Origin: Pseudanabaena sp. FACHB-2040
Lineage (GTDB): Bacteria; Cyanobacteriota; Cyanobacteriia; Phormidesmidales; Phormidesmidaceae
Length of the DNA: 64,000 bases
Direction: 5' to 3'
Assembly (NCBI RefSeq): GCF_014696715.1
Contig: NZ_JACJQO010000019.1
Location: forward strand, 1 to 64,000
Shown here piece by piece: positions 21,947 to 37,030 of this stretch (positions are counted from its first letter, which is position 1; every line of letters starts with the position of its first letter). The notes beneath the pieces are model-generated. The model did no database searches and was not told the origin of the DNA. It saw only the letters and a program-made list of their open reading frames with translations. The translations under genes were made by a program, and so were the position numbers.

Positions 21947-22019
21947 GCCGGGATAGCTCAGTTGGTAGAGCAGAGGACTGAAAATCCTCGTGTCGGCGGT
22001 TCAAGTCCGCCTCCTGGCA
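21947..22019 (+). tRNA. trnF: tRNA-Phe (GAA)
   Basis: A 73-nt cloverleaf: acceptor GCCGGGA pairs with TCCTGGC (one G-U), anticodon stem GAGGACTGAAAATCCTC carries GAA, and the T arm is GGCGGTTCAAGTCCGCC. CCA is not encoded. Its 3' part is the left attachment site of the integrated element and is repeated at 36974. Confidence 0.98.
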
Positions 22020-22029
22020 TACGTTTCAG
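21973..22029 (+). repeat. attL: attL: 57-bp direct repeat, left copy
   Basis: Identical over 57 bp to 36974-37030 (offset 15,001). It covers the anticodon arm to the 3' end of tRNA-Phe and 10 bp beyond (CATACGTTTCAG). The tRNA stays complete at this side, as expected for integrases that recombine in tRNA 3' ends. Confidence 0.93.
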
Positions 22030-22262
22030 AGATCGCCATTCTCGTAAAATGGCGACTCTCTCTTTCTGAGTCGCATAAGATATCTCTGTTTAAGGGGTAT
22101 TCAATAGTCTTTGAATAAGAGCAACTTACTTCTTTAGCGGAGTGAAGCATCATGATTATGAGCACTTGCAGGAAGCGCTGCATGATTACATAGCGAGCAC
22201 GTTCTCACCTTGAGCTTTGTTTAAGAACCTTTTGCAAGCTACAGCTTAACTAAAATTTAGTT

Positions 22263-23366
22263 CTAGTAAGGCTCAACATGAAGGGTGATATTTTGGTAGT
22301 GTTCCTTATACGCAGTAGCAGGAATGGCATGGAGATTAATTTGGGAATTAATCTGGGAATCAATCCACTGGTAATTATCAAAAGTCATTAAACTCCTCAT
22401 CTCCAATTCCTCAGATGTTAGTATTCGGCTATTAACCCAAACACCAGAAGACCAAGAATGTAAACCCATCCCATCTAATTCGCTTGGTAGTTCGACCTCA
22501 GGATTTTGATGCCTAAGCAGTAAACTTCTTCTATTAAAGTTAACCATTGTTCCATGCTTGTAAAGGTTTTCCTCTCCCAAGACTATGCTTTCTTCCCACA
22601 CAACTAAAATTCCGCCTACCGCGGAATTGAAGTGTCTTATGTGCGGGTTGAGGGCATTGCAAGCAGTATCTACTTCTTCTGGTGGCTCGTCTGATAAGTT
22701 CCTTTTTAAGACTCCAATTTTACTTGAGAGGTCTAGCAAAATCATTCCAGGCAAATTTCTGCCTGTCTCTCTATTGAATTTCTTGAATTGCTTATTGGCT
22801 TTCTCAATCACAGATTTATATCTGTTGTCCCCAGAGGATGAGTTGATTCTCTTGCAATCTACCAGATACGAATGTCCTGATTCATGTAGAGTTACTTTAA
22901 AATCTGGAAAGCCTTCCTCCTCAAACGGGCAGACTTGGTGCTGATTTAAGATATACCAGGCTGCGTGGATAAGCTCAGTCATTAAGTCTTCAAATTGGTT
23001 GGAGTCGTTGACTCTTGACTTTATCTTCTTAAGAACTTTATCATCACCATACTTGGCAAAGTCTCCCAAGGTATTAGTTCCTATATTTCCAAAAGCTTTC
23101 CCGCCACTACAAAGAGATAGTAGGTTCGCATCAAGAAGAATTTTTGCGTGACGAGCATGTTCCTCTGGATTAATGGGTTGGGGAAGATTTCCCATACCAA
23201 TAACGATATCCCAATATTCCCTCCACATCTGATAGGCTGGGTGGTTATGCTTTCGGTAATTCTTATGAAGTGCTGGAATATTCACCAAGTCTACTAAAAG
23301 CTCCAGAACGTTAAAAAACATTAATTGGGTTGCATAAGCTGTATTTTGATCAAAATTAGAATTCAT
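22263..23366 (-). CDS. Putative PD-(D/E)XK nuclease, element cargo
   Basis: From ATG 23364-23366 (preceded by AGGGAAT) the protein has 367 aa. The region FEDLMTELIHAAWYIL is followed by PDFKV at 154-158 and LVDCKR at 168-173; the spacing PD-(14)-DxK with an upstream helix Glu fits the PD-(D/E)XK nuclease core. The C-terminal ~150 residues match nothing I know. The gene is AT-rich against its neighbours, stands alone beside attL, and is separated from the integrase operon, as cargo often is. A defence or anti-phage role is an inference. Confidence 0.6.
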   Translation of the reverse strand: MNSNFDQNTAYATQLMFFNVLELLVDLVNIPALHKNYRKHNHPAYQMWREYWDIVIGMGNLPQPINPEEHARHAKILLDANLLSLCSGGKAFGNIGTNTLGDFAKYGDDKVLKKIKSRVNDSNQFEDLMTELIHAAWYILNQHQVCPFEEEGFPDFKVTLHESGHSYLVDCKRINSSSGDNRYKSVIEKANKQFKKFNRETGRNLPGMILLDLSSKIGVLKRNLSDEPPEEVDTACNALNPHIRHFNSAVGGILVVWEESIVLGEENLYKHGTMVNFNRRSLLLRHQNPEVELPSELDGMGLHSWSSGVWVNSRILTSEELEMRSLMTFDNYQWIDSQINSQINLHAIPATAYKEHYQNITLHVEPY

Positions 23367-23399
23367 ATTCCCTGAAAAGCTTTTCAATTAAGTCTGCTG

Positions 23400-23520
23400 T
23401 CTGGGGATGGAATGAGTATAGCCCTGAGTAGTTGCTGAGGAACGCAACTACTCAAACGAGAGAATGCGGGTTTGAAGCCTGTTGTCACACGAAGATTACG
23501 GTCAAAAGTAGTGTGCCAAT
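23400..23520. repeat. Structured sequence related to DNA outside attR
   Basis: 23432-23496 matches 37433-37497 at 58 of 65 positions, with weaker similarity on both sides. The left copy contains a perfect hairpin AGTAGTTGC/GCAACTACT (23428-23453). It lies between the cargo gene and the end of the integrase gene. Confidence 0.7.
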
Positions 23521-23566
23521 CACGGGGTTTTAGTCCAAATGTAGTCCACCCCCATTTGTAGTACGG

Positions 23567-35573: not shown

Positions 35574-35855
35574 ATGGCTGACCCCAATCAAGATTTTGAC
35601 CAAGAGATGTTCAGAGAGATTCGAGCTGGCCTCAACCCTAAACGCAAGGTAAGGACTCGGCTTGGCATTCTTCACAATGGCAATGTCGCTTTGGAGGACG
35701 CAACCATTGACCCAGCTCAACCCCGCCCCGAGACATCAGACGATTCTTCTTCCCCGGCTCCGGCGAAAAAAACCACGGCTAGAAGTGCCCCCCCTGCTAA
35801 AGCGGCTGTGGATTCAAAATCTGATACGCCTGAGCCAGAGAAGGCTGGGGCCTGA
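35574..35855 (+). CDS. Hypothetical protein with Ala/Pro/Lys-rich tail
   Basis: A 93-aa protein starting MADPNQDFDQEMFREIRAGL. The second half is low complexity (SSSPAPAKKTTARSAPPAKA). It contains an A7 run at 35766-35772 in frame GCG AAA AAA ACC. The next gene overlaps it in the +1 frame. Confidence 0.65.
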   Translation: MADPNQDFDQEMFREIRAGLNPKRKVRTRLGILHNGNVALEDATIDPAQPRPETSDDSSSPAPAKKTTARSAPPAKAAVDSKSDTPEPEKAGA

Positions 35856-36072
35856 GCTCTACCACTTCAATGAAGCAGGGCATTTTATAGGCCGCATCTC
35901 TGAGGCCCAGCCTGACCCTGCTAATCCTGGGGGCTACCTTGTGCCCCCGGGCACCACCCTGAAATCGCCTCCATTATGCTGCCGTGGGTGGGTGCCTGTC
36001 TGGTTTGCTCCCTATTGGGACATAGAGTGCGAGGAATTGGCCAGAATGGCAGACCCTGACTTTTTTTTATGA
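35785..36072 (+). CDS. Tail-fibre-assembly-like small protein, start uncertain
   Basis: The convincing part begins at about 35845: GPELYHFNEAGHFIGRI, ADP-type spacing, NPGGYLVPPGTTL and WVPVWF. This pattern (YHF..G.F.G..EA.PDP..PG..L.P.. T) is like the N-termini of phage tail-fibre assembly and tail-associated proteins. No ATG is near; GTG 35785 is the closest standard start, CTG 35845 would fit the conserved part better. A frameshift from the preceding gene at its A7 run is another possibility. Confidence 0.5.
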   Translation: MPPLLKRLWIQNLIRLSQRRLGPELYHFNEAGHFIGRISEAQPDPANPGGYLVPPGTTLKSPPLCCRGWVPVWFAPYWDIECEELARMADPDFFL

Positions 36073-36419
36073 GCTGGCAACCATTGGGAACGTTTTCCCC
36101 CACAAAAGAATGGAAGACACTGGGAACGCTCACCAATGGGGGCAGTCTCTTTAGGATTCGGCAGGATTGGGTAGGGGACTGGCCCGGCACTGGCTACCTC
36201 CAAATCTCTTTTGTGTACGAAGGCGCGGGCCGTTACGGATTCCGTAAGGTGGGGTCTGATAAGGAAGATCGGGTTCTAAACTGCCCTATTTCAGAAGCCC
36301 TGGCAGCTGAGGGCTTTACCTCTCGCCAAATGGCTATAAAGCTAAATTTGTATGCTCGGCTCTACTCGGGTGCTAATTGGGTTGTATCTGTAGACCAATG
36401 GATTGACGATGACACCTGA
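36069..36419 (+). CDS. Hypothetical beta-rich protein of the late module
   Basis: A 116-aa protein starting MSWQPLGTFSPTKEWKTLG, rich in Trp, Tyr and Gly, with alternating strands (GYLQISFVYEGAGRYGFRKV). ATGA coupling to the gene before. The composition is typical of small phage tail or spike proteins, but I recognise no family. Confidence 0.68.
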   Translation: MSWQPLGTFSPTKEWKTLGTLTNGGSLFRIRQDWVGDWPGTGYLQISFVYEGAGRYGFRKVGSDKEDRVLNCPISEALAAEGFTSRQMAIKLNLYARLYSGANWVVSVDQWIDDDT

Positions 36420-36759
36420 TATTCAATCGGTATTGTGGGGCTTCTTGGGTGGCCTAATAACTGTGGCGGGAACTGTGGTAGCCATTACCAACTGGCTGAA
36501 TGGGAGATTCAACCAGCTTTTTATATCCCATGAAAAGCTAAATGGCAAAATTGAAACCCTTAGCAACCGAGAAGCTTCAAACAATGACCATTTGGGCTAT
36601 TTGTATAATGCCAACAAGGAACTAATCGAGCACAGAACCCGCAGGTTTCAGGAAGAAATCAAGCGGCTTCAGGATGAAACTGTAAAGGATATTGAAGATA
36701 TCAAAAGTTTTTTAGACAAAACGACCGAGTTCACGATACGCGGAAAGGATCGGCATTGA
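36409..36759 (+). CDS. Holin-like / XhlA-type membrane protein
   Basis: From ATG 36409 the 116-aa product has one N-terminal membrane helix (VLWGFLGGLITVAGTVVAI) followed by a long charged coiled coil (HEKLNGKIETLSNREASNND, FQEEIKRLQDETVKDIEDIK). That layout matches XhlA/BhlA-type holin-associated proteins. It overlaps the previous stop. No endolysin gene is visible beside it. Confidence 0.6.
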   Translation: MTPDIQSVLWGFLGGLITVAGTVVAITNWLNGRFNQLFISHEKLNGKIETLSNREASNNDHLGYLYNANKELIEHRTRRFQEEIKRLQDETVKDIEDIKSFLDKTTEFTIRGKDRH

Positions 36760-36763
36760 GAGT

Positions 36764-36973
36764 ATGGCCAAAGTAACAACGATCAACATCTCTCACAGAG
36801 GCCCTGCATTCGATCAGGACGCGATTGAGAGAGCCTTCAAGTGGATTAGCGAGCAGATGTCGGCAGCTGATTTGGCGGGCTGCGATTATCTCGCAGCAAG
36901 CGTTAATGTCGATTCTGAGACGCGCTTGGATTTCAATATGTACTCTGAGCCGCCTGAAGGGATTCAAGGCTAG
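36764..36973 (+). CDS. Small hypothetical protein at the right end of the element
   Basis: A 69-aa protein (MAKVTTINISHRGPAFDQDA) whose stop codon TAG ends at the base before attR. It starts 4 bp after the holin-like gene. No known domain. Confidence 0.62.
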   Translation: MAKVTTINISHRGPAFDQDAIERAFKWISEQMSAADLAGCDYLAASVNVDSETRLDFNMYSEPPEGIQG

Positions 36974-37030
36974 GAGGACTGAAAATCCTCGTGTCGGCGG
37001 TTCAAGTCCGCCTCCTGGCATACGTTTCAG
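36974..37030 (+). repeat. attR: attR: 57-bp direct repeat, right copy
   Basis: Perfect copy of 21973-22029, including the 3' part of tRNA-Phe. The 5' part of the tRNA is missing, so it is not a functional tRNA gene. Confidence 0.93.

Follow-up and report, generated by a model that had tools for sequence, protein, structure and literature searches.

The window analysed here, a stretch of 64 000 nucleotides from contig NZ_JACJQO010000019.1 of the cyanobacterium Pseudanabaena sp. FACHB-2040, holds an element of 15 001 bp integrated at a tRNA-Phe gene, and we read it as a temperate cyanobacterial element of virus-like nature that would form its own, so far undescribed particle; to this reading we assign a probability of about 0.47. 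At its right side lies a module of genes, here called S, BIG, C, M, A, R and T, that most likely encodes such a particle together with a spike; the existence of the particle, its fold and its freedom from a helper are predictions from the genes, and the virus nature is inferred only from lysis and fibre-like genes carried by relatives of the element. As far as tested, this element family fits no described virus.

The size of the unit is the start-to-start distance between the two copies of a direct repeat, identical at 57 of 57 bp, of which 47 nt constitute the 3' part of tRNA-Phe with another 10 nt beyond it. The only tRNA found by ARAGORN in the window was an intact tRNA-Phe(gaa), held whole at the left copy, while the right copy has the 3' part only. 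By its sequence the pair is a classical tRNA attachment (att) pair, far beyond what chance would give. The features that define the integrated unit, with lengths of proteins in amino acids (aa), are as follows.

21947-22019, + strand: tRNA-Phe(gaa), intact, the integration target (ARAGORN)
21973-22029, + strand: attL, 57-bp direct repeat, 47 nt of tRNA plus 10 nt (repeat search)
36974-37030, + strand: attR, 57-bp direct repeat (repeat search)
23567-24457, - strand: tyrosine recombinase (integrase), 296 aa; phrog_1 at E=4.6e-30, Pfam PF00589 Phage_integrase at E=1.6e-5
25497-26930, - strand: PrimPol, plasmid-type replication protein, 477 aa; PF09250 Prim-Pol at E=0.0015, under the cut-off

A reading made earlier from the sequence only had claimed a complete 15-kb integrative element with intact att sites in tRNA-Phe, equipped with an integrase and a PrimPol and laid out compactly in two operons. 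All of this was borne out: the repeat pair is perfect with the tRNA retained whole, two divergent operons starting at ~27.4 kb are seen directly, the integrase has a convincing PHROG match (its Pfam match reaches 25.2 bits, under the 27.1 cut-off), and PrimPol, with its Pfam match below threshold, has homologues on plasmid records but none in phage records, as discussed below. In the only congener (genome G386), the contigs stop short of the site that corresponds to the empty tRNA-Phe site. A 92-bp repeat (85%) was also seen, located directly behind the integrase gene (23429-23518) and again 400 bp outside attR (37430-37521), possibly left behind by a related element that was integrated at this tRNA before.

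Using C as query, we found relatives in 27 of 386 cyanobacterial genomes and 22 of 143 genera, host included, with 13 of the 63 genomes in the host's family being positive. The same 27 genomes were recovered using profile A3 (19 rows), obtained from the C-family alignment A1 (30 rows) by removal of divergent members. As M used as a single query found only 6 of the 386 genomes, it diverges faster than C. We then scored all open reading frames (ORFs) of 59 loci (numbered with L, as genomes are with G) using class profiles; 49 of these loci hold C, and the counts of the other classes in these 49 are given below. The order S-BIG-C-M-A-R-T was kept by the same-strand members found in all 49 loci, with two loci showing C alone; this count was limited to genes that lie within 9 kb and on the same strand as C. 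Exceptions were seen off-strand, with M- and R-type genes of L081 (G191) located upstream on the other strand and an M-type match of L068 placed likewise. The ratio of nonsynonymous to synonymous substitution rates (dN/dS) for C was 0.041-0.054 in three pairs, two of them having dS >1, with a fourth pair being saturated; C is thus, judged by these ratios, under strong purifying selection. For the other core genes the ratio was 0.07-0.12, except for M of one pair, treated below. The window copy of the module (30707-36759), in which two small ORFs lie between A and R, and the ORF that follows it are composed as follows.

30707-31012, + strand: S, small module protein, 101 aa; 50% identical in L008; class in 38/49 loci
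31012-33765, + strand: BIG, 917 aa, Pro/Ala-rich and stalk-like with a conserved C-terminal domain, proposed spike; 43/49 loci
33768-34592, + strand: C, core protein, 274 aa, the most conserved of the module; 27/386 genomes
34698-35252, + strand: M, strongly basic core protein, 184 aa, candidate DNA-binding or coat protein; 39/49 loci
35265-35561, + strand: A, strongly acidic protein, 98 aa; weak Exog_C match at E=0.0027, far under the cut-off; 35/49 loci
35562-35855, + strand: ORF of 97 aa; weak relative in L008, 31% identity over 65 aa, E=0.028
35857-36072, + strand: protein of ~72 aa, start codon uncertain; cluster c57, relative in L008, no PHROG match
36069-36419, + strand: R, module protein, 116 aa; 43% identical in L008; class in 36/49 loci
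36403-36759, + strand: T, 118 aa, holin/spanin-like; phrog_7686 Rz-like spanin, weak, E=2e-4; 15/49 loci
36764-36973, + strand: terminal ORF, 69 aa, no PADLOC match

Scanning S to T, apart from the two small ORFs, against Pfam and PHROGs gave no convincing relatives, with the weak spanin match of T alone being worth naming; these scans covered the window ORFs other than those at 28777-28998, 35562-35855 and 36764-36973. Members of the C and M families taken from relatives gave nothing better than E=0.027 against PHROGs. The median isoelectric point is 9.8 for the M class (c3; range 9.3-10.5, n=32) and about 4.1 for the A class, and T has an N-terminal hydrophobic helix (hydropathy peak at residue 9) and a coiled coil. 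BIG has hydrophobic, coiled-coil or collagen-like stretches, and some BIG proteins have collagen-like stalks matching tail-fibre PHROGs, which taken alone is evidence of a stalk only. As a side observation, five of seven M matches (L003-L007) lay within 1 kb of a contig start, one of these five in a 5.5-Mb single-contig genome, perhaps due to repeated copies breaking assemblies.

The features that point towards a virus are found next to the module in relatives. Endolysin-like genes were present in 8 of the 49 loci, on the strand of C and 1.0-4.8 kb downstream of its start, being of four kinds without mutual matches at E=1e-5. Three of the kinds have database support (phrog_894 at E=1e-24, phrog_33083 at E=8.7e-15 and phrog_90 at E=1.2e-30): an M15 peptidase kind in L104 and, over 91 aa, in L088; a phrog_33083/phrog_3000 kind in L093, L070 and L087; and a phrog_90 endolysin with a sub-threshold YkuD part in L076. 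The count excludes an M15 peptidase of L106, which is situated beyond the att repeat. Fibre-like genes with support were found in five loci, with the gene of L170 matching minor-tail PHROGs (best E=4.5e-16) and that of L171 being its relative, those of L143 and L008 being alike and having a stretch of 44-53 aa in common with L170 but no PHROG match of their own, and that of L087 giving a weak tail-collar-fibre match (E=7.5e-5). Both counts rest on seven query proteins drawn from the loci themselves. Proteins at the proposed outer side of the particle also vary in a particular manner: between the closely related L170 and L171, identity is 88-96% for C, M, A and R and 31% for S, and BIG shows 75-100% identity over its last 240 residues but 17-37% before that, with the corresponding values for BIG of L166/L167 being 70-90% and 15-27%. 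Exchange of the BIG N-terminus together with divergence of S is, as far as can be judged from these alignments, the pattern of host-recognition protein evolution.

With regards to mobility, exact tRNA-derived repeats of at least 43 bp were found to bound five of 17 tRNA-bearing loci examined, window included. The four others were at tRNA-Glu in G289 (47-bp repeat, unit of 15 478 bp), tRNA-Phe in G027 (43-bp repeat, 12 578 bp), tRNA-Lys in G072 (45-bp repeat, 9931 bp) and tRNA-Pro in G387 (45-bp repeat, 14 714 bp), while the remaining 12 loci may use another site or end outside the examined stretch. A 6.8-Mb contig of G191 has two copies at a distance of 5.1 Mb from each other, being 97.98% identical over 12 468 bp with shoulders that are more diverged, each within its own direct repeat (18 bp at a spacing of 16 498; 22 bp at a spacing of 16 105), with copy B also having some shorter repeats further in. 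We also noted that these direct repeats (L081, L195-L199) differ between the two sites, with the outermost 10-13 and ~36 bp being unshared, which is not the usual outcome where a tyrosine recombinase recognises a fixed core site. Plasmid forms were found in Nostocales cyanobacterium HT-58-2, with the circular pHT582-1 (37 kb) carrying S to R together with ParB and the circular pHT582-2 (15.6 kb) carrying BIG, C and an S fragment together with ParA and ParB. The latter also encodes a 1664-aa protein (L107, 9827-14821) resembling, by eye only, a MACPF-type pore protein. Mobility is thereby well supported by sequence, through the att repeats here and in four relatives, the near-identical pair on one contig and the plasmid forms. 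The sequence-only reading had proposed a mobile integrative element that is transferred in the particle of another phage or in its own, and had suggested a search for the same genes at other tRNAs; the mobile element and its relatives at other tRNAs held up, while particle-borne transfer is what the genes make us propose. A larger prophage containing this segment, which it named as a finding that would contradict it, was not seen in the loci read.

We also evaluated the element against known classes of viruses and mobile elements, using hidden Markov model (HMM) scans. Large terminase, portal and HK97-type capsid were not recognised when 20 proteins of the window were scanned one by one, nor in the family listing obtained for 80 ORFs, in agreement with what had been noted from the sequence at first; weak 'terminase small subunit' matches in the window are those of the helix-turn-helix (HTH) protein. 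The 80-ORF scan covered five elements (21 window ORFs, the ORFs of G289, G027 and G387, the last being cut by the locus end, and 5 of the 12 coding sequences of pHT582-2), with twelve ORFs of G072 and four overlapping ORFs standing outside it, and the families listed were 25 of 26 for Pfam and 25 of 86 for PHROGs. No relaxase or type IV secretion family, as expected of integrative conjugative or mobilizable elements, was found in the window scans or among these listed families. For a PRD1/PM2-type phage, a packaging ATPase was sought, and there was no P-loop motif in the called ORFs of the window and none conserved near the module in the loci listed; a double-jelly-roll capsid gave no HMM match in the module proteins of the window. 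For Inoviridae, there was no Zot match in the window scans and no P-loop, and the window copies of S, C, M, A and R lack a hydrophobic segment (Kyte-Doolittle 19-residue mean >1.6). An integrase at a tRNA combined with its own primase, as in satellites, is present and is not satellite-specific, while the att-bounded unit with an S-BIG-C-M-A-R(-T) module is that of the proposed element family. No description of the module was found in the literature, open-licence papers being covered.

A search among spacers of clustered regularly interspaced short palindromic repeats (CRISPR) gave one candidate that we did not use. At 29 of 35 positions, window 30242-30276 agrees with a spacer from a genome of the same family. 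We treated this match as ambiguous, since the spacer contains the HIP1 octamer GCGATCGC and the matched stretch is part of a motif with HIP1 that recurs in the window; of the 70 spacers, the 69 others matched the element at 71% at most. The spacers come from the CRISPR array L185/L194 (G392:C1:1978000-1996000), which has 74 exact repeat cores.

From the gene set we propose the following course of events. In the resident state the HTH protein would hold both operons down, and upon induction the integrase would excise the unit between the 57-bp repeats as a circle, which PrimPol would replicate. The right operon would make the particle and release it, with C and the basic M, together with A and R, holding the DNA inside. 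BIG would serve as a stalk anchored through the ~240 conserved residues at its C-terminus, the exchangeable part at its N-terminus, along with S, would recognise the host, and T, in relatives together with an endolysin, would open the cell. Packing of the DNA would involve neither a terminase nor a packaging ATPase that can be recognised, and the particle would thus be unlike those of tailed and PRD1-type phages.

Several findings weigh against a virus-like element with its own particle. In the HMM scans no module protein resembles a known capsid protein. Searches of the PDB with C, M, R(-type) and the BIG C-terminus gave nothing below E=0.6, and AlphaFold2 models of C and M, using two-sequence alignments (window and L008), had confidence scores (pLDDT) of 31.6 and 36.9 and were not usable. 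No relative was found in IMG/VR using M, C and BIG, in scans that depend on short conserved peptides, or among 50 697 phage records of INPHARED using M, C, the BIG C-terminus and R-type, and the module is therefore not linked to particle DNA by any record. In the window copy neither an endolysin nor a fibre gene could be recognised, T with its weak spanin match being all that was seen; 41 of the 49 loci gave no endolysin with the four queries used, and the fourth kind of endolysin (L071, L095) is L,D-transpeptidase-like by eye, without database match. Five of ten fibre-like calls (L144-L147, L172) were likewise made by eye without database match, and that only the other five had further support slightly lowered our confidence in this reading and in that of a new virus class, with a small gain for the satellite and plasmid explanations given below. 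A third close pair, L144/L146, showed no switch in BIG in the part compared, one BIG being short, and has a dN/dS for M of 0.35. Finally, no integrase was recognised in the element of G072, the VapE gene of which is shortened, and no C in that of G289, as a result of which both are probably decayed.

The proposal can be taken further, to a new class of cyanobacterial viruses with a particle unrelated to described ones, lacking terminase, portal, packaging ATPase and known capsid, in which M, as a small basic coat protein, and C hold the DNA and the exposed half of BIG, a host-specific spike, is exchanged between lineages. Throughout the phylum such viruses would reside either integrated at tRNA genes or in plasmid form, missed by present virus collections. 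This wider claim we regard as less likely than not.

Another explanation, which we consider rather unlikely, is that of a phage satellite, self-replicating but packed in the capsid of a helper phage, with the module reshaping the particle of the helper or the fibres on it. The size, the target in a tRNA gene, the presence of integrase and PrimPol and the lack of a recognised terminase, portal or capsid all match this, and so do three circular genomes of 14.1-15.8 kb (G8) from cryoconite virus-size fractions, called putative satellite phage-plasmids in an excerpt of PMC4490671, two of them having a prim-pol (prim-pol or primase in all) and all three an integrase, though one is listed with terminase and phage tail. 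The endolysin-like genes of the relatives speak against it, since satellites are said in an excerpt of PMC11389934 to lack lysis functions, as does the lack of INPHARED relatives for the four module queries.

Unlikely as well, and somewhat more so, would be an integrative plasmid whose module forms a surface or contact structure, such as an adhesin or fibre with lysis genes, serving the host or the spread of the plasmid. PrimPol argues for this, matching 66 plasmid records (35 non-mobilizable, 23 conjugative and 8 mobilizable), 53 of them over at least 80% of its length, with the organisms among the matches listed being cyanobacteria. This distribution, with no relatives of it found in phage records, also counts against a virus, and the replicon of the window element is thus plasmid-like. 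The partition genes on both module plasmids, the hydrophobic, coiled-coil or collagen-like nature of BIG and the lack of a proven capsid agree with this explanation. Weighing on the other side are the lack of conjugation, relaxase and secretion families among those listed for the 80 ORFs, the phage-type endolysins and minor-tail-type fibre that adjoin the module in relatives, and the exchange of the N-terminal part of BIG, which resembles that of host-recognition proteins. A prophage of known tailed-phage type that is decayed or incomplete, for which the damaged elements of G072 and G289 could speak, is very improbable with regards to the intact repeats, integrase and open frames of the window copy, the same compact gene set across 22 genera without recognised head or terminase gene, the selection on C, and no module having been seen inside a complete tailed prophage in the loci read.

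Should the virus-like element with its own particle be real, about 1 in 14 of the sampled cyanobacterial genomes (27/386, host included) would carry a resident virus-like element missed in IMG/VR and INPHARED, with a new type of particle encoded by a compact, directly testable gene set of ~6 kb, and this would explain part of the small tRNA-borne islands of cyanobacteria. Were the module to prove something other than a virion, there would still be a mobile gene set, widely conserved and without known function.

The leftward operon has the gene order 103-aa ORF, PrimPol, three overlapping small ORFs and integrase, with a separate AT-rich gene beside the tRNA in a region of GC content 0.406 (22001-23000). 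This gene beside attL looks like acquired cargo and is nuclease-like by eye only; a search for defence cargo using PADLOC had no match for ten proteins scanned. The remaining genes of this side are as follows.

22263-23387, - strand: AT-rich cargo gene, 374 aa; no Pfam or PADLOC match, best PHROG E=0.097
24461-24784, - strand: left-operon gene, 107 aa, overlapping its neighbour; relative in L101
24777-25187, - strand: left-operon gene, 136 aa, overlapping ORF; relative in congener contig L096
25180-25500, - strand: left-operon gene, 106 aa, overlapping ORF
26987-27298, - strand: first gene of the left operon, 103 aa, ORF

PrimPol is 83% identical to that of the congener, with a dN/dS of 0.176. 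Among 59 genomes of the host and its near kin, 36 have relatives of it; four matches, that of the window included, are in the host genome itself. Small contigs of the host genome have PrimPol and a 188-aa gene in common with the window element. Two of its contigs, C27 and C31 (L098 and L100; 17-19 kb), carry the same PrimPol family together with ParA-like genes and look like small plasmids, and C-, M- and BIG-type profiles had no match on the stretches of them examined.

As another side observation, a ~190-aa core-only tyrosine recombinase (int6), like FimB/FimE in size, was found in 15 of the 59 loci (L008, L067, L070, L073, L075, L076, L080, L082, L092, L094, L095, L108, L143, L169 and L013), in 13 of them beside a recognised S gene. 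A promoter inverted by int6 was considered and rejected, as the best inverted repeat beat all 30 shuffles in only 2 of 13 intergenic gaps (L080 and L092).

The rightward operon starts with the HTH gene, followed by early small genes and then the module.

27504-27549, no strand: perfect 13-bp inverted repeat (arms 27504-27516/27537-27549), candidate HTH operator
27548-27778, + strand: Cro/CI-type HTH repressor, 76 aa; PF01381 HTH_3 at E=5.4e-12
28218-28784, + strand: protein of 188 aa, shared with small contigs of the host genome; weak HTH match, PF05225 at E=0.0021, under the cut-off
28777-28998, + strand: ORF of 73 aa (translation)
28995-29375, + strand: early right-operon gene, 126 aa; cluster c56, also in L098
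29375-29767, + strand: early right-operon gene, 130 aa, with a 55-bp internal repeat (period 60); cluster c32, also in L105 and L106
29793-30179, + strand: early right-operon gene, 128 aa; cluster c33, also in L105 and L106

The start of the HTH gene lies inside the inverted repeat, the arms of which are separated by a 20-nt gap, and this arrangement would fit an autoregulatory operator. Exact copies of its 11-bp core occur in the window only at these two places, and allowing one mismatch gave three matches, which is not above chance (11 of 100 shuffles reach three). A second perfect inverted repeat, of 12 bp, is found at 27431-27442/27460-27471, and no sigma-70-like promoter was found between the operons. 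The repressor gene that the sequence-only reading had seen here is thus real, with the inverted repeat at its start, and the switch that it had claimed is plausible.

Among known systems, small tailless or filamentous temperate phages of Vibrio were long overlooked prophages, according to excerpts of PMC11630473 and PMC9966536. The window element would be alike in being small, tailless and overlooked. Small tailless or filamentous phages of this kind have either a double-jelly-roll capsid with a packaging ATPase or Zot with small coat proteins, whereas none of these hallmarks was recognised in the element. Phage-plasmids are comparable to pHT582-1 and pHT582-2, being circular plasmids with partition genes and all or part of the module, while known phage-plasmids are mostly tailed phages with terminase and capsid. 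P4-like satellites have a similar plan, with small size, prim-pol and integrase, and compared with these and the G8 genomes, in both cases by description, the element family is distinguished by the endolysin-like genes of relatives and by the conserved module of unknown proteins. The tycheposons of Prochlorococcus, set beside the element by description only, are alike in plan, having a tRNA target, a tyrosine recombinase, their own replication gene and a cyanobacterial host, and the element family described here differs from them in its conserved S-BIG-C-M-A-R module and the lysis genes of its relatives.

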